From Meiothermus sp. (lineage in GTDB: Bacteria > Deinococcota > Deinococci > Deinococcales > Thermaceae), in the NCBI RefSeq assembly GCF_026004115.1, contig NZ_BPIM01000001.1:2956501-3020500 (forward strand): 64,000 nt of DNA. The letters run 5' to 3'. The first letter of the stretch is position 1. Every line of letters starts with the position of its first letter. The translations under genes and the position numbers were made by a program. Of the stretch, positions 6,089-53,846 are shown piece by piece. The notes under the pieces are model-generated. The model searched no databases, was not told the DNA's origin, and saw only the letters and a program-made list of their open reading frames with translations.

Positions 6089-6123
6089 ATCCTCGAACTC
6101 ATACCTCCAAGCGCGCCGAGGTT

Positions 6124-6372
6124 ATACCGGATTCAAAAAGATAGTCATCAAACCAAAAAATCCAGAGGCTATCTTTTTGAATCCTAAGTACAACAACCTT
6201 AGGAATTTGCTCTACCCGAAAAGGGGAGCCCATAAGCTGCGCCGCTTTGAAGACCGGCCACTTCTTTCGCCGAAACCGTCACGACAAAAATCTAATGTGG
6301 GCGCACTTAGAGCACTCCTTTCAGTCGGGTTAGTTCGCCGCCGTATGGCGGCGAACTAACCGAATCTGGTAT
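6124..6372 (+). repeat. Family C hairpin repeat, copy 1 (carries nested family A element)
   Basis: Outer ends are ATACCGGATTC (6124) and GAATCTGGTAT (ending 6372), an inverted repeat matching at 10 of 11 positions. Removing the nested element at 6187-6307 leaves about 125 bp with two strong stems: a 16-bp stem around AAAAAGATAG/CTATCTTTTT and a 14-bp stem GTTAGTTCGCCGCC/GGCGGCGAACTAAC. Related copies lie at 37403, 38521 (partial), 43535 (inverted) and 45072. No direct target duplication is obvious. Its right end touches the stop codon of the convergent G8-domain gene. Confidence 0.85.
6187..6307. mobile_element. Family A MITE, 121 bp, TA target duplication, nested in repeat C
   Basis: The element runs from AGTACAACAAC to GTGGGCGCACT and is flanked by TA (6185-6186, 6308-6309). 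Other copies of repeat C have the uninterrupted sequence CCTAGAGCACTCC at this point, so the empty site is directly visible. The ends form a degenerate inverted repeat (15 of 24 positions). A second copy is at 51255-51376, also flanked by TA. TA duplication points to an IS630/Tc1-mariner-type transposase acting in trans. Confidence 0.85.
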
Positions 6373-8921
6373 TACTTGCAAAGGTCGTTGCGGCAAATGT
6401 CTAGTACGGCCCAGTCGCGGCCTGGCTGATTGCGCACCACCAGCTTCACAAAAACACTGCCGCCTTCACTCCAGTAGCGGTCCCCTGAGCTGGCTTCGAA
6501 ATCGCTCCGGGAAGCCGCACGCGGTAGTTTGTTGCGATTGTCGATCCAGTAGTCACGGTATATGAAGGGTTCCCCAGTGTAGGGTATAGCCAGGGTAATG
6601 AAGTCTTCCGGTGCACTATCATCAAAACGCAGCTTGAGTTTGTTGGGAACGGTTCCTGTCACGCCCAGGGTATAGGTACGGCCCTTGATGACGCTCGCGC
6701 CAAAATTGAGATTATCGCCGCTCCTGGGGGTACCCCACATTCGGAATACCGGATTGCTACCATCGTTGCGGGTCAGCGAGACTGGGGCGATATTGCCGCC
6801 GCTTTCGTTGTAGATGTAAAGCCGACCATAGCTGTAGTTGCAGATGCCCGCATTCCACTCGGCCTGCAATGTGCAGTTGGTGTCGAGCAGGAAGGGATTG
6901 TTGAGGACGATGGCACGACCCGGGCTCCCACTAACCGAGCCATCAACATCCACAAAAACCCCGCCCCGGTAGCCATCGGCGTTGTCGTCGTTGGCCACCT
7001 CCTCGGGGGTGGGCTCTGGTCTGGGAGGAAGGTAGACCGGCTTGGCGTTATTGAAACGCGCTCCCTGCGCAAAATTGCGGCTATCAATGGCAAAATCGGT
7101 AAAGCGCAGGTAGCTCATGGCCGCGGCCTCGCGCGTGGCGGTCTGGCCACCCTGGGCATTCTGGATTTGCAGGGGTTGGAAGTTGACAAACTGCACGTTG
7201 CGGAAGCCAATCTTGCCGTCGTAGAACTCAAAACCCCGGATGGGAAAGTTGTCCTGGATGGGGCCGCCATTGCTGGCTGCCCAGGGCCTGGGCAGACTGC
7301 GGCCATCCGCCCCACGAAACTCCCAGCTTTCGGGGAAGCCCCGGTTGGCACTATCGCCCACTATCAGCGAGTCTTCCAGGGTACTCTCCGAGGAGGCAAA
7401 GGTCACCCCTATGGCATTGTCGGCCAGTTTAGCTCCGACTACTTTATGATTAATACCCCTTAGCCAAGCGGCATTCCCGCGATTTTTGTAGGCGGTAAAG
7501 TTCTTGAACTCGGCCAAAACGGGCGGGTTCTTGGCGTCGTCGTACTGGTTCTGGCCGTCGGCGGGGTTGGTGCGGGGGTTGTAATAGGTGGGCTCGGATT
7601 CCAGGGTGTTTTTGTTGGGGCCGCGGTCTACCATCAGCCCGTCCCAGTTGGAGTGGGCGACATTGCCCGAGAACTCGCCGAGCGGGGTGCGGCGGGGCCA
7701 GATGGTAGTGGTGGCCGAAGGGCCGGTGGGGTTTTCGGGCAGGGCATACCAGAAGCCGGTGTGGTGCGAACCTGCGGCCACATTGTTGCGCACGATGTTG
7801 TCGGGGTGGCCGATCCAGAAGGTGGCGGGGTTGGTGTCGGTGGGAATGATCGGGCGTTCGCCCTGCTGGCTGTTGGGGCGCCGGGTCAGAATGCCCAGGT
7901 TGTTCTCGAGCAAGTTTTTGGTTTCGGCGCTGTCCTCGAGGAAATAACAGTGCCCCACAGCGTTGTAAGCCACGTTGCCCACCACTTCCACTCGGCTGGT
8001 GCCGTGAATGGTGACGCAACGGTTGAAGCTATTGTGGATGGAAGACTGCTTGAGGTACTGCCCCGGAGCGTCGCCCATCAGGTGCCAGTGGATGGGATAG
8101 CGGGCCAGTGTGTTGCGCTGGCCCATGCGCAGCAGCTCCACACCCGAAACACGCAGGGTGCCCCCCTGCATGGACATGATGTGACCTCCAAAACCGCTCT
8201 GGCTCGAGGCCTCGTCCCCCTGGATGGTGATGTTGCGGCTCAGCAAGCCCACCTCCCCGCGTTGATCCACCCCATAGGTAACCTCGCCAAAATGGGGGTA
8301 TCGGAGGGCCGTGTCGAGGGTGATGGTGTTGCCTGCAATGGCGGTGATGGTTCTGACTTCTGCCTGTTCAGGGTTGAAATCGGTGGAGGCCAGCACGATG
8401 CGGTCTCCTACCCGCCATCCACTGGGATCCAGCACGGTTATGCGGTTAGAACCGGCAGCCACGCTCCCGCTCAGTTTGGTCCAGCCATTGCGGGGCTCCC
8501 CATGCAAATCCAGCACACCCCCCATTATCACGCCAATCACTTTGCTGCCCATGCCCATGATATTTTCGTTGGGGTTGTTGCCGGTAAGGGTCAGGACGGC
8601 TCGGTTGCGGAAGGGCTGGCTGGGGGTGCCGATCTCGAGCTTTCCGTGCACCATGATCCAGTCGGCGCTGAGCTGTAAATCCTTGTTGTCAAAGCGCAAT
8701 ACGCCGTAGATTTTAAGCCCCTTGAGTGCCGGCGGGTTGACATCAAGCGTCACGGCCAGGTCGGCGGGGATGTTCACCACCTCACCCTGACGGGGTACTT
8801 GTCCAGCGGGCCAGATTTTGGGATCCGACCATAGCCCCGACCGGGTGGGATTGGTGCCTGTATCTTGCAGCGAACATGCTGTAGCGCTCAGCAAGATTGT
8901 TAGCCAAAGCCAGTGTTTCAC
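6372..8921 (-). CDS. G8-domain right-handed beta-helix lipoprotein (CEMIP-like)
   Basis: The GTG start at 8921 follows GGAGG. The protein has 849 residues with a lipobox LSATAC (Cys16), so it is probably anchored outside the membrane. Residues about 27-150 look like a G8 domain (SGLWSDPKIWPAGQVPRQG and following conserved Gly/Trp pattern). They are followed by a long parallel beta-helix region with repeated asparagine-rich turns and the motif YPIHWHLMGD. This architecture is known from animal CEMIP/TMEM2 and PKHD1-type proteins and from scattered bacteria. CEMIP is involved in hyaluronan breakdown; whether this protein cleaves a polysaccharide is inference. The coding region ends inside repeat C. 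Confidence 0.75.
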   Translation of the reverse strand: MKHWLWLTILLSATACSLQDTGTNPTRSGLWSDPKIWPAGQVPRQGEVVNIPADLAVTLDVNPPALKGLKIYGVLRFDNKDLQLSADWIMVHGKLEIGTPSQPFRNRAVLTLTGNNPNENIMGMGSKVIGVIMGGVLDLHGEPRNGWTKLSGSVAAGSNRITVLDPSGWRVGDRIVLASTDFNPEQAEVRTITAIAGNTITLDTALRYPHFGEVTYGVDQRGEVGLLSRNITIQGDEASSQSGFGGHIMSMQGGTLRVSGVELLRMGQRNTLARYPIHWHLMGDAPGQYLKQSSIHNSFNRCVTIHGTSRVEVVGNVAYNAVGHCYFLEDSAETKNLLENNLGILTRRPNSQQGERPIIPTDTNPATFWIGHPDNIVRNNVAAGSHHTGFWYALPENPTGPSATTTIWPRRTPLGEFSGNVAHSNWDGLMVDRGPNKNTLESEPTYYNPRTNPADGQNQYDDAKNPPVLAEFKNFTAYKNRGNAAWLRGINHKVVGAKLADNAIGVTFASSESTLEDSLIVGDSANRGFPESWEFRGADGRSLPRPWAASNGGPIQDNFPIRGFEFYDGKIGFRNVQFVNFQPLQIQNAQGGQTATREAAAMSYLRFTDFAIDSRNFAQGARFNNAKPVYLPPRPEPTPEEVANDDNADGYRGGVFVDVDGSVSGSPGRAIVLNNPFLLDTNCTLQAEWNAGICNYSYGRLYIYNESGGNIAPVSLTRNDGSNPVFRMWGTPRSGDNLNFGASVIKGRTYTLGVTGTVPNKLKLRFDDSAPEDFITLAIPYTGEPFIYRDYWIDNRNKLPRAASRSDFEASSGDRYWSEGGSVFVKLVVRNQPGRDWAVLDICRNDLCK

Positions 8922-28830: not shown

Positions 28831-28981
28831 CGTTGGACAAAACCCCATCTTCCTCCCCCAACGGGGGAGGCTAGGTGGGGGCATAACACCCAGAGAGGCC
28901 ACCTACCTGCGGGCATTTTTCAACACCAAACGTCTGAAGTGCCCCTGGCTGAGGTTTGCGAGGTTTCACGCACCGACCCTG
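28831..28981 (+). mobile_element. Family B MITE-like element, copy with degraded left end
   Basis: From about 28843 to 28981 the sequence closely follows 45233-45395, including the CTCCCCC/GGGGGAG hairpin, the central block CCACCTACCTGCGGGCATTT and the right end CACCGACCCTG. The left terminal repeat is shortened and no target duplication is seen. The hairpin may also serve as a terminator after metX. Confidence 0.75.
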
Positions 28982-37344: not shown

Positions 37345-37402
37345 TATAACCTGTAGCCTTTGTGATAGCCAAAAGCGGCTTCCAAAAAGAACGCAAACTC
37401 TA

Positions 37403-37526
37403 ATACCGGATTCAAAAAGACAGTTCACAAAACCAAAAACCCCATAGGTTGTCTTTTTGAATCCTAGAGCACTCCCTTCGATCGGGTTAGTTCGTCACCC
37501 TTCGATGACGAACTAACCGAATCTGA
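37403..37526 (+). repeat. Family C hairpin repeat, copy 2, interrupted by the IS element
   Basis: It starts ATACCGGATTC and has both stems (AAAAAGACA/TGTCTTTTT and GTTAGTTCGTCA/TGACGAACTAAC). The right terminus is split by the IS: the remaining bases TGATAT continue at 38431-38436 after the duplicated TGA. Confidence 0.85.
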
Positions 37527-38430
37527 GAGGCTGTCGTAAAAGGGGGCTATACTTGAGGGGTGGTTCTTCGCAGAGCCTACCCCAGCGACCTGACGGATGA
37601 GGAATGGGCCATCCTGGAGCCCTTGATCCCTGCCCCTAAAGCTGGCGGCCGTCCTGCCAGGGTGCCGAGGAGGGAAATAGTTAACGCCATCCTTTACGTC
37701 CTGGAGAACGGCATCAAATGGCGGGCCATGCCCCATGATCTGCCCCACTGGTCCACCGTCTACCACTACTTCCGCAAGTGGCAGAAGGAGGGCGTATGGG
37801 AGAGAGCCGTCCAAACCCTGGCCCGCCAGGATCGGGAACGAGAAGGGAGACAGGCTTGCCCCAGCGCCTTGGTCATAGACAGTCAGTCTGTGAAGACCAC
37901 GGAAAAAGGGGGCCCCGGGGACATGACGGGGCGAAAAAGGTCAAGGGAAGAAAGCGGCAGATTTTGACGGACACGGGGGGCCGGTTGCTGAAGGCCTTCG
38001 TGCACCCCGCCAACGAGCATGACAAGTGGGGTGGGCAGGCCTTGCTCCTGGGGATGGACCTCTCCATGTGGCCCCGGGTGCGCAAGGTCTTTGTGGACTG
38101 GGGGTACCGGGGCCTCAAGGGGCTGGCTTCTTCCCTGGGGCTGGAGCTTGAGGTGGTGGCCCGTCCCTACGCGGGGGTGCGGGGGGTCTGGGTGCGGGAG
38201 GGGGAGGAGGTGCCGGAGATTCCGCGGGAGGAGGGGTTCAAACCTTTGCCTCAGCGGTGGGTGGTGGAGCGGACCTTTGCCTGGCTTGGGCGGAACCGGC
38301 GGCTGTCTAAGGACTACGAAGAGAACCCCCGGGTGAGCGAGGCCTGGGTGTATCTGGGCATGCTACGCTTGTTGGTGAAGCGGCTGGCCAGGGCCGCGTA
38401 GCTTCCGTGGAGGGCTTTTACGACAGCCTC
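37527..38430 (+). mobile_element. IS5-family insertion sequence (IS1031/IS427-like), intact ends
   Basis: This 904-bp element has perfect 16-bp terminal inverted repeats GAGGCTGTCGTAAAAG at both ends and a 3-bp target duplication TGA (37524-37526, 38431-38433). It contains one transposase gene split over two frames. It landed five bases from the end of a family C repeat, so no gene is disrupted. Base composition is richer in G+C than its surroundings, which suggests arrival from a higher-GC relative such as Thermus. Confidence 0.93.
37560..38401 (+). CDS. IS5-family transposase, two overlapping frames joined by -1 frameshift
   Basis: The first frame (37560-37967) has the N-terminal YPSDLTDEEWAILEPLIP domain and the first catalytic Asp in VIDSQSV. 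The second frame (37778-38401) continues GPRGHDGAKKVKGRKRQIL, with the second Asp in VFVDWGYRG and the Glu in RWVVERTFAWLGRNRR. A -1 shift within the run AAAAAGGGGGCCCCGGGG (37903-37920) restores the family sequence SVKTTEKGGPRGHDG. Programmed frameshifting is normal for this IS group, so the transposase is probably functional. GTG start. Confidence 0.88.
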
Positions 38431-38520
38431 TGATATAGAGCACATCCCTCCCTGTAGGTCGGCGAAAAAAGCATCTGCCTTCCAAGGGGCGCTATCGCCC
38501 TCCGCTACGCGGACAACTTC

Positions 38521-44955: not shown

Positions 44956-45071
44956 GGTCAGTTGTCCTGTCTGTGGAAAGAAAGCTTTGAGCGCAGCGTT
45001 CTTCAATTCTGTATGCAGTCCCTTTGCGTGCTACTTGGTCAGTACCCTTCAGATGTGAAAGAAGAGGAGTG

Positions 45072-45200
45072 ATACCGGATTCAAAAAGATAATCATCCAA
45101 ACCAAAGATCCCCAGATGCTATCTTATTGAATCCTAGAGCACTCCCTTCAGGCCCTGTTGGTTCGCCGCCATCCGACGCCGAACTAACCGAATCTGGTAT
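45072..45200 (+). repeat. Family C hairpin repeat, copy 5
   Basis: 129 bp from ATACCGGATTC to GAATCTGGTAT, with both stems present but imperfect. It shows the uninterrupted CCTAGAGCACTCCC at the site where copy 1 holds the family A element. Confidence 0.85.
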
Positions 45201-45232
45201 TACAGGGGTGGCAAGCAACTTTGTCTTTCTGC

Positions 45233-45395
45233 CAGGGTTGGTGCATAAAGTAAAACCACGCCTTCCCCCCCCAACGGGGGAGGCTAGGTGGGGGCATAAC
45301 ACCCAGAGAGGTCACCTACCTGCGGGCATTTTTTCAGCACCAAACGTCTGAAGTGCCCCTGGCTGAGGTTTGCGAGGTTTCTCGCACCGACCCTC
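45233..45395 (+). mobile_element. Family B MITE-like element with perfect 10-bp target duplication
   Basis: 163 bp from CAGGGTTGGTG to CACCGACCCTC, flanked by GTCTTTCTGC at 45223-45232 and 45396-45405. It is colinear with the element at 3840-4003 (opposite orientation) and 28831-28981. It lies upstream of tig and has no coding capacity. Confidence 0.88.
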
Positions 45396-50983: not shown

Positions 50984-51254
50984 GTAACACATGGGGATAA
51001 GGCCGCAGATTCTAACCGTCGAGCAATCGCCTTTGGCCGAGCTATAGAGTTATCTTGATGGTATACGAAAAACTGCCGTACTCTGCTTCGAAACAAAGCC
51101 CCACCTCGAGGGGCCTCGAGTAAAAAAACTTCGCAGTGGTCTGGTAACCAGGAATTCGGTATGCACAGCAGTCCTTCTCGATGAGCTGCACATCGCAATT
51201 TTGGGCAGTCAACGTGCTTCAACACGTACCGCAAAATAAGTTACCTATGCACTA
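50984..51254. other. Intergenic stretch without recognisable genes
   Basis: About 270 bp between the speD promoter and a family A element. It contains a CTCGAGG-type palindrome at 51107-51120 but no convincing reading frame, RNA gene or terminator. Confidence 0.45.
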
Positions 51255-51376
51255 AGTACAACAACGTTAGGAATTTGCTCTACCCGAAAAGGGGAGCCCA
51301 TAAGCTGCGCCGCTTTAAAGACCGGCCACTTCTTTCACCGAGACCGTCACCACAAAAAATCTAATGTGGGCGCACT
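51255..51376. mobile_element. Family A MITE, second copy, TA target duplication
   Basis: 122 bp nearly identical to 6187-6307 (one extra A in an A-run, a few substitutions), flanked by TA at 51253-51254 and 51377-51378. High identity between the copies suggests recent movement. Confidence 0.85.
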
Positions 51377-51489
51377 TAGGTAGCTTGCAACCGTTTAGAC
51401 AGGCTTCGGTACCGGCTTGCTCGACAAACCTGCGCAGACCCATACGAAACTGGTTTTTGGCTACAAGTTGGGACTTGCCCAGGCCTGGC

Positions 51490-52149: not shown

Positions 52150-52962
52150 TCAGGTCTGCCCATTGAGGGCCAGCACATGCGCGATGGCTTGAGCGAAGCC
52201 ATCCTCGCGCACGTGGCCGGTGACGTGGTCGGCCACAGCGATAATTTCATCTACTGCGTTGCCCATAGCAATGCCGAGTCCCGCATCGCGGATGGCCTCG
52301 AGGTCGTTATGGCTATCACCAATCATGGCCACTTCCTCTAGAGAAAGCCCGTAATAATGGGCCAGCCAGCGAAGCCCGTACAGCTTGTTCACCCCCTTTT
52401 TGATGACGCCCACAATGGCCTCGCGGGGGTTCAGGTACTCGGCCAGGTCAATCTCGGTTAGGGCTTCCAGGTCGGGCTTGACCGTTTCCCACAGGCTCAG
52501 ATCGGGCACCACAAACCACAGCCGCACCAGAGTTTCCTCAATTTCCTCAACCAGGGCCGAGCGGGCCGTCACCCCGGTGGTCTCGATGTGGGTCAAGAGC
52601 TCGGGAGGCATGAGCGCGTCTTCGTAGTAGCGGCCACCCTTGGCCCCCATGAGGTCAAAGGGCAGCCGATATTTGCGAGCAATAGCGATGATTTCCTTCA
52701 AGTGGGGTACCGGCTCGGCATGGAGCGACCTGCCCCCGGCGTCGCAAATGGAGGCGCCATCGTTGAAGACATGGGGCCCGTCGGGTTGCAAGCGTTGGGC
52801 GTATTGCAGGCCATGGCCCCCCTGCGGACGACCTGTACAAACCGCAAATTTCAAGCCCGCCTTTTGGCCTTGCTCGATGGCAGCCCAGGCCGATTCGGGC
52901 ACGCCCAGGATGCGTCCGGCGTAAAAGGTTCCGTCGAGGTCCAGGGCCACAAGTTTGATCAT
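52150..52962 (-). CDS. Cof-type HAD hydrolase 1
   Basis: This 270-residue phosphatase of the Cof/IIB HAD subfamily has nucleophile Asp8 in DLDGTF, motif II in CTGRP, Lys in VIKKGVNK, and motif IV in IGDSHNDLEAIRDAGLGIAMGNA. Typical substrates are sugar phosphates or pyridoxal phosphate; none is indicated. It is a paralogue of the next gene upstream on the same strand, with 59 bases between them. Confidence 0.9.
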   Translation of the reverse strand: MIKLVALDLDGTFYAGRILGVPESAWAAIEQGQKAGLKFAVCTGRPQGGHGLQYAQRLQPDGPHVFNDGASICDAGGRSLHAEPVPHLKEIIAIARKYRLPFDLMGAKGGRYYEDALMPPELLTHIETTGVTARSALVEEIEETLVRLWFVVPDLSLWETVKPDLEALTEIDLAEYLNPREAIVGVIKKGVNKLYGLRWLAHYYGLSLEEVAMIGDSHNDLEAIRDAGLGIAMGNAVDEIIAVADHVTGHVREDGFAQAIAHVLALNGQT

Positions 52963-53021: not shown

Positions 53022-53846
53022 TTACTGCTGCGCAGGTGACCTCATCAAAATATCCAAGGCTTGCTCGAGGCCACACTCGTCAACTTTCCTTACCACCAAG
53101 TCGGCGGCTTGCTGCACGCTTGCAGGCGCGTTGCCCATAGCGATGCCCAGTCCGGCGGCCTGGATTAGTTCAAGGTCGTTTTCACCATCACCAACCATGG
53201 CGCACCGGCTCAAATCGAGCCCTAACTGAGCCGCCACCCATTCCGCGGCCGCCCGTTTGGAGACCCCCCTTGCGGTTACTGAACTAAAACCTACCCCAGG
53301 CATACCCGGGCTGGTAGCTTCGTGGAGCTCAACCTCCGGCATGCGCAGAATCTGCTCGCGTATCTGCGACCAGGCGGGGGAGGGGCGCCAGACAAACTGC
53401 ACCCGTACCACCCGTTCGGCCACCTCACCCAAATCGTGCTGCTCGGCTTGGAAGCCCAGCATGGTTTCGTGGTAGAGCAGGTCGGGGTGCGTGCTCTCGC
53501 GGTAGAAACTGCCCTCGGCGGTGTATACCTCAAAGGGAACCGCGTGCAGTCGGCTGAGCTCGAGCAGCCTTTTATAAGCCTGCATGGGCAGCGCCGAGAC
53601 CTGTACTACCTCTCGGTGCCCCGAAACAATCACCGCCCCCGACTCAAAAATATGAAAGCCTTGGGGGTCAAGCCGCTCGGCGTACTCGAGGGCGAAACCG
53701 CGCCCGGGCCGCCCCGTGCAGATGCTCAGATGCAGCCCTGCTTTTCTGGCGCGTTCTGCGGCCTCCCAGGCGCACTCGGGCACACCGCCGGGGCCGAACA
53801 GGGTGCCATCCACGTCTATCAGCACAAGCCGGATCGATCTATTCAT
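53022..53846 (-). CDS. Cof-type HAD hydrolase 2
   Basis: This 274-residue paralogue of the preceding protein has Asp11/Asp13 in IDVDGTLFG, CTGRPGRGFALEYAERL, VTARGVSKRAA for the conserved lysine, and GDGENDLELIQAAGLGIAMGNA. The two share the same insert domain layout, indicating tandem duplication. Start set at ATG 53846; an in-frame TTG upstream is possible. Confidence 0.88.
   Translation of the reverse strand: MNRSIRLVLIDVDGTLFGPGGVPECAWEAAERARKAGLHLSICTGRPGRGFALEYAERLDPQGFHIFESGAVIVSGHREVVQVSALPMQAYKRLLELSRLHAVPFEVYTAEGSFYRESTHPDLLYHETMLGFQAEQHDLGEVAERVVRVQFVWRPSPAWSQIREQILRMPEVELHEATSPGMPGVGFSSVTARGVSKRAAAEWVAAQLGLDLSRCAMVGDGENDLELIQAAGLGIAMGNAPASVQQAADLVVRKVDECGLEQALDILMRSPAQQ

Follow-up and report, generated by a model that had tools for sequence, protein, structure and literature searches.

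A TA-flanked repeat inserted in a second repeat of Meiothermus is very probably an orphaned MITE of IS630/Tc1-mariner type

Short repeats with TA ends have been described from Streptococcus pneumoniae and from Neisseria. The RUP repeat of S. pneumoniae is a non-coding sequence of 107 bp with TA ends and terminal inverted repeats (TIRs) like those of IS630-Spn1; its mobilization in trans has been proposed, and insertions of RUP in IS elements are mentioned in the accounts cited here (PMC2229807, PMC3049150). Correia/NEMIS elements of Neisseria are described as about 107-155 bp long, with TA ends, TIRs and both filled and empty sites, their short form containing read-through frames (PMC2229807). 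Here, we characterize a repeat family from Meiothermus, called family A, which is a new family of an already known type of mobile DNA. Likened by description, RUP/IS630-Spn1 is the nearest published analogue of family A that we have seen, with the difference that the proposed partner of RUP occurs in the same species, whereas that of A was not found in its own genome (PMC2229807, PMC3049150). As far as the description goes, Correia/NEMIS elements resemble A in size, TA ends, TIRs, filled and empty sites and read-through frames, but reside in a different host (PMC2229807). ISY100 of Synechocystis likewise uses a TA target and generates a TA duplication, but is full-length and autonomous (PMC2170065), while A carries no gene. 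A search of the published literature on Meiothermus/Thermaceae MITEs, IS630 and MITE-IS630 pairs yielded no description of family A.

The window, i.e., the whole stretch of 64,000 nucleotides analyzed here, belongs to a genome of 3.35 Mb in three contigs (G000). The first copy of family A in it (W1) has a core of 121 bp on the plus strand (6187-6307; left end AGTACAACAACCTTAGGAATTTG, right end CAAAAATCTAATGTGGGCGCACT) and is bordered by TA target duplications at 6185-6186 and 6308-6309, so that the copy with both TAs, as read directly from the sequence, comprises 125 bp (6185-6309). It breaks a repeat of family C, also on the plus strand, after the motif GAATCC into a left part at 6125-6184 (TIR TACCGGATTC) and a right part at 6310-6371, which ends GAATCTGGTA. 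Two other plus-strand copies of family C in the window, at 37400-37525 (CCTAGAGCACTCC; right tip cut by an IS5-like end) and 45069-45204, have the TA site intact: at 37403 and 45072 they read GAATCCTAGAGCACTCC without a break and with a single TA at the insertion point, on which the assignment of the two flanking TAs as a duplication is based. This confirms the preliminary description, according to which a TA-flanked element of 121 bp interrupts family C at 6185-6309 and a second TA-flanked copy lies at 51255-51376. The latter copy, again on the plus strand, has a core of 122 bp owing to one extra A and spans 51253-51378 with its TAs at 51253-51254 and 51377-51378. The family C repeat had been placed at 6124-6372, where it is indeed found; together with its own target duplication, a TTA of the TNA type at 6122-6124 and 6372-6374, it is slightly wider (6122-6374). 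The order of insertion at this locus is clear, with C arriving first in the spacer after ligA and A inserting into C afterward, and the nested arrangement thus puts two events in time order.

Further genomic copies, on which the MITE reading had been made to depend, are present in number: family A has 21 copies in its own genome (E-values 3.9e-60 to 1.4e-46), which is far beyond chance. TA is found on both edges of 20 of them, and flanks other than TA, named beforehand as a point against a MITE, were seen just once, in a copy with decayed ends (L024). The wider context is CTA..TAG in 15 of the 21 copies, CTA..TAA in two, and TTA..TAG, ATA..TAG and GTA..TAG in one each. Since CTAG accounts for only 69 of the 1961 TA sites in the window (3.5%), the 15/21 share has a P of ~7e-18. 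The ends of the family, TAAGTACRACAACGTTAGGAATTTG and TAAGTGCGCCCACATTAGATTTTTG, form an imperfect TIR with 17 of 25 positions shared between left and right. As expected of MITEs, the elements are short, multi-copy and A+T-rich (G+C content 48.8%, compared with 58.8% for the window), and they lack a protein-coding gene, no frame exceeding 41 codons. In the consensus, two of the forward frames contain no stop from end to end, and most copies add 123 bp net (41 codons), which would permit an in-frame fusion. None of the four scanned ORFs crossing or running into A (L005, L006, L007, L037) gave a Pfam match; a further ORF (L034) ends inside an A copy. Strong secondary structure of the transcript is often listed for MITEs, although it is not decisive; folding of two copies on both strands revealed none above that of shuffled sequences (z = 0.22, -0.58, -0.21, and -0.12).

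Empty sites were sought in two ways. For W1, the orthologous ligA loci of 17 relatives within the genus were compared by blastn, and 0/17 contained A or C; in the nearest relative, G002, with 89% identity over the ligA stretch, ligA and the next gene are separated by a short spacer. Presence of the element at the same site in every strain and species, named beforehand as a point against a MITE, was hence not borne out by these loci. For 13 of the 21 copies, the joined flanks were searched in nine genomes, leaving out the eight copies whose flanks hold C or another repeat (W1, L009, L011, L012, L017, L019, L021, L028). In 10 of the 13, relatives or paralogues align across the junction without A, and six of these 10 sites show a single TA exactly at the junction (L013, L014, L015, L018, L023, L027), the alignments for L013 and L014 extending over 302 bp with no gap. 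The empty sites of L027 are paralogues within the own genome, and those of L018 and L015 are both paralogous and found in G002, the own-genome paralogue of the L015 site having CA as its dinucleotide. At the other four (L016, L020, L025, L026) the relative has CG, GA, TG, TC or CC, which we read as later mutation. For L022 and L024, the alignments were one-sided and began a few bases ahead of a TA, and L010 was not among the alignments.

Taken with the TA duplications and the empty sites, the resemblance of the ends to those of IS630 elements supports the earlier assignment of family A as an IS630/Tc1-mariner-type MITE. The 18 genomes of the genus were searched for IS630-type (DDE_3) genes, and the fetched loci were scanned for A-like ends. 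Such ends were found only in G002 and G009, where they adjoin the stop codon of the transposase and the IS630 copies are cut by contig ends; the other fetched loci of the genus, including those of G007, G012, and G016, had no A-like end within eight mismatches. In a third genome, G022, of the same bacterial family, an IS630 element of 1069 bp occurs in three copies that do not differ from each other over this length; each is bordered by TA on both sides, and two frames encode HTH_32/HTH_33/HTH_23 and DDE_3. This element shares TA flanks and A-like ends with family A, but differs in its length and its transposase; 19 of 25 positions are in common at the right ends and 17 of 25 at the left ends. 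Column shuffling gave P < 1e-5 (right) and 1.3e-4 (left) for these matches, both values being uncorrected for the search through which the loci came to light. In all three genomes the IS630 ends read TAAGTA..., and the comparison with A covers the ends. A full-length IS630 element with the same ends, the check proposed at the outset, was thus encountered in part: related genomes contain DDE_3-encoding elements with similar ends, but these are not identical, and no element with exactly the two ends of A was found, the best IS ends differing at 6 and 8 of 25 positions.

The own genome does not contain an autonomous partner. Its sole DDE_3 gene (L043) is broken by an in-frame stop, has ends reading TAAGAA... 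that match those of A and G004 at 8-12 of 25 positions, and was rejected as a parent. Used as a protein query at E ≤ 1e-30, the G002 transposase found relatives in six of the 111 phylum members searched and no match in the own genome, where A-type ends are those of the 21 copies, except for two hits with two mismatches each. A GTDB-wide scan with the left-end pattern returned two loci in Meiothermus MAGs and four single hits in other phyla with no second end visible, and the viral contigs, plasmids and phages searched contained no match to A.

From these sequence comparisons, we estimate a probability of roughly 0.9 that family A is a non-autonomous MITE of IS630/Tc1-mariner type, orphaned in its own genome. 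Its movement was probably brought about in trans, by a transposase since lost. By analogy with the chemistry of ISY100, as far as it is laid out in the source, an IS630 transposase would have bound both ends of A, excised the element and joined it to a TA, and repair of the staggered joint would have produced the TA duplication (PMC2170065); on A, the enzyme would have acted in trans. As the transposase gene is now absent from the own genome, the 21 copies would be left over from one or several bursts.

Related elements were detected elsewhere in the genus. The left-end pattern of A gave 20 hits in G000, 16 in G004, which are diverged relatives, and one each in four other genomes, and the right-end pattern also retrieved relatives in G005 (seven) and G015 (four) as well as one hit each in G038 and G100. 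The elements of G004, G005, and G015 have the same two kinds of end and a consensus of 124 bp, with 78/123 positions identical to A for G004 and 68/123 for G005/G015. Their sequences are species-specific and thereby distinct from A, the G004 copies being more diverged among themselves. The clan thus occurs in 4 of the 18 genomes of the genus, and it is missing, by both end patterns, from G002 and G009, the carriers of the matching IS630. Among these 18 genomes, some of them drafts, the four with the clan and the two with matching IS630 ends do not overlap, small as the numbers are; since draft assemblies lose repeats, absence of the transposase from G004, G005, and G015 is weak evidence. Such a distribution lends itself to the question of how long a MITE persists after its transposase is gone. 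Meiothermus thereby gains a complete worked case, which comprises the element with its target, duplication and empty sites, its sister families in three other species, and three further genomes with a candidate partner.

It is also conceivable, if rather unlikely, that this MITE continues to move today, served by a transposase from a replicon or strain that the assembly does not include. Pairwise divergence among the copies averages 3.8% (range 0 to 8.8%) and 8 of the 210 pairs are identical; such sets of identical copies lie at unlinked sites, e.g., L013/L014/L019 and L020/L021/L022, which would fit continued movement. Against this stands the lack of a matching transposase in the three-contig own genome. 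Recent activity had initially been suggested on the basis of two almost identical copies in the window. These agree at 120 of 126 aligned positions (~95%), which is short of near identity; they belong to separate subfamilies among the three groups recognized by eye (W1 with L009-L012; L020-L022 with L027 and L028; the remainder) and are therefore not the best sign of recency, which the identical copies elsewhere provide. An autonomous partner, absent from the own genome, is needed for present activity, but not for MITE status.

Far less probable is that the orphaned MITE owes its movement to another TA-duplicating family, such as a group of the IS5 family, its likeness to IS630 ends being a matter of convergence. 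Short duplications containing TA occur outside IS630, too, and the own genome carries IS5-type (DUF4096) genes at six places but no intact IS630. Moreover, family C in this genome has a TNA duplication. However, the ends of A match those of IS630 elements at 19/25 and 17/25 positions, the likeness being seen in three genomes with the same placement with respect to the transposase gene, and a TA target with a 2-bp duplication is described as the habit of IS630 (PMC2170065).

Family C itself is abundant, with at least 56 matches in the own genome, where scoring covered 40 of the 205 first-look candidates, and with matches in 14 of the 18 members of the genus; its TIR is TACCRGATTC. Its duplication was assessed at 18 of 20 fetched loci (L212-L231, the truncated L230 and L231 being left out), with the ends of two of the 18 unreadable. 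The same 3-mer flanked both sides in 12 of the 16 readable copies, and TNA fits 16/16 of the left and 15/16 of the right 3-mers. With mostly identical and nearly always TNA-type flanks, C looks MITE-like as well, with a 3-bp TNA duplication. A duplication of this kind is the habit of the IS1031 group of IS5. No parent was found for family C: around the six DUF4096 places of the own genome, C-like ends occur only at L262 and L267, and both belong to ordinary C copies and were discarded as parental ends. Elsewhere in the genus, inspection by eye showed A-like sequence inside C ends (L241 in G015, L258 in G004) and C-like sequence inside A-like elements (L240 and L252 in G004), i.e., both nesting orders occur. 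The element that cuts the right tip of the C copy at 37403 is IS5-like (~37526-38437, DUF4096 gene, ends GAGAGGCTGTCGTAAAA), and a different C-like fragment lies on its far side.

According to an ORF heuristic (≥90 aa), 11 of the 21 copies of A lie between convergent ORFs. This position, mostly outside genes, is what a structural or regulatory repeat spread by recombination (REP/BIME-like, terminator, or small RNA) would show, but such a reading is hardly credible, since it is largely refuted by the exact duplication of TA and by empty sites with a single TA, and the two folded copies formed no hairpin stronger than shuffles, which rules out an RNA or hairpin element. Three of the 21 copies of the MITE lie exactly in stop codons, the genes ending on the first bases of the element: L011 (G000:C1:2318812) in that of a short-chain dehydrogenase (SDR) gene (L004), L017 (G000:C1:1288598) in that of a rhodanese-like protein gene (L031) and L022 (G000:C1:1125996) in that of an MFS transporter gene (L036). 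Judged by eye from the flanks, the former stop TAG is now TAA in all three genes, and the corresponding position of the MFS gene in G005 is an intact TAG (by eye, reverse strand). As both ends of A read TAAGT, the stop is kept in either orientation. The preferred CTAG target together with the net insertion of 123 bp might tentatively suggest that selection in a compact genome has favored insertions of A that do no harm, which we consider doubtful. Any TA-target element with ends starting in A or G would do likewise, so that landing in stop codons may be chance. The alternative to such selection would be chance combined with the loss of harmful insertions.

Several other repeats were noticed along the way. 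A separate family (GGTAACCAGGAATTCGGTATGCAC...) borders several A copies, in the window at ~51130-51252 and in the flanks of L009, L017, L021, and L028. A further two-copy repeat is located at 28839-28980 and 45252-45394, with stretches of 82 and 65 nt that are 94 and 97% identical. Finally, 74-nt stretches at 52256-52329 and 53128-53201 share 77% identity at a distance of 872 bp, possibly as parts of tandem paralogous genes.
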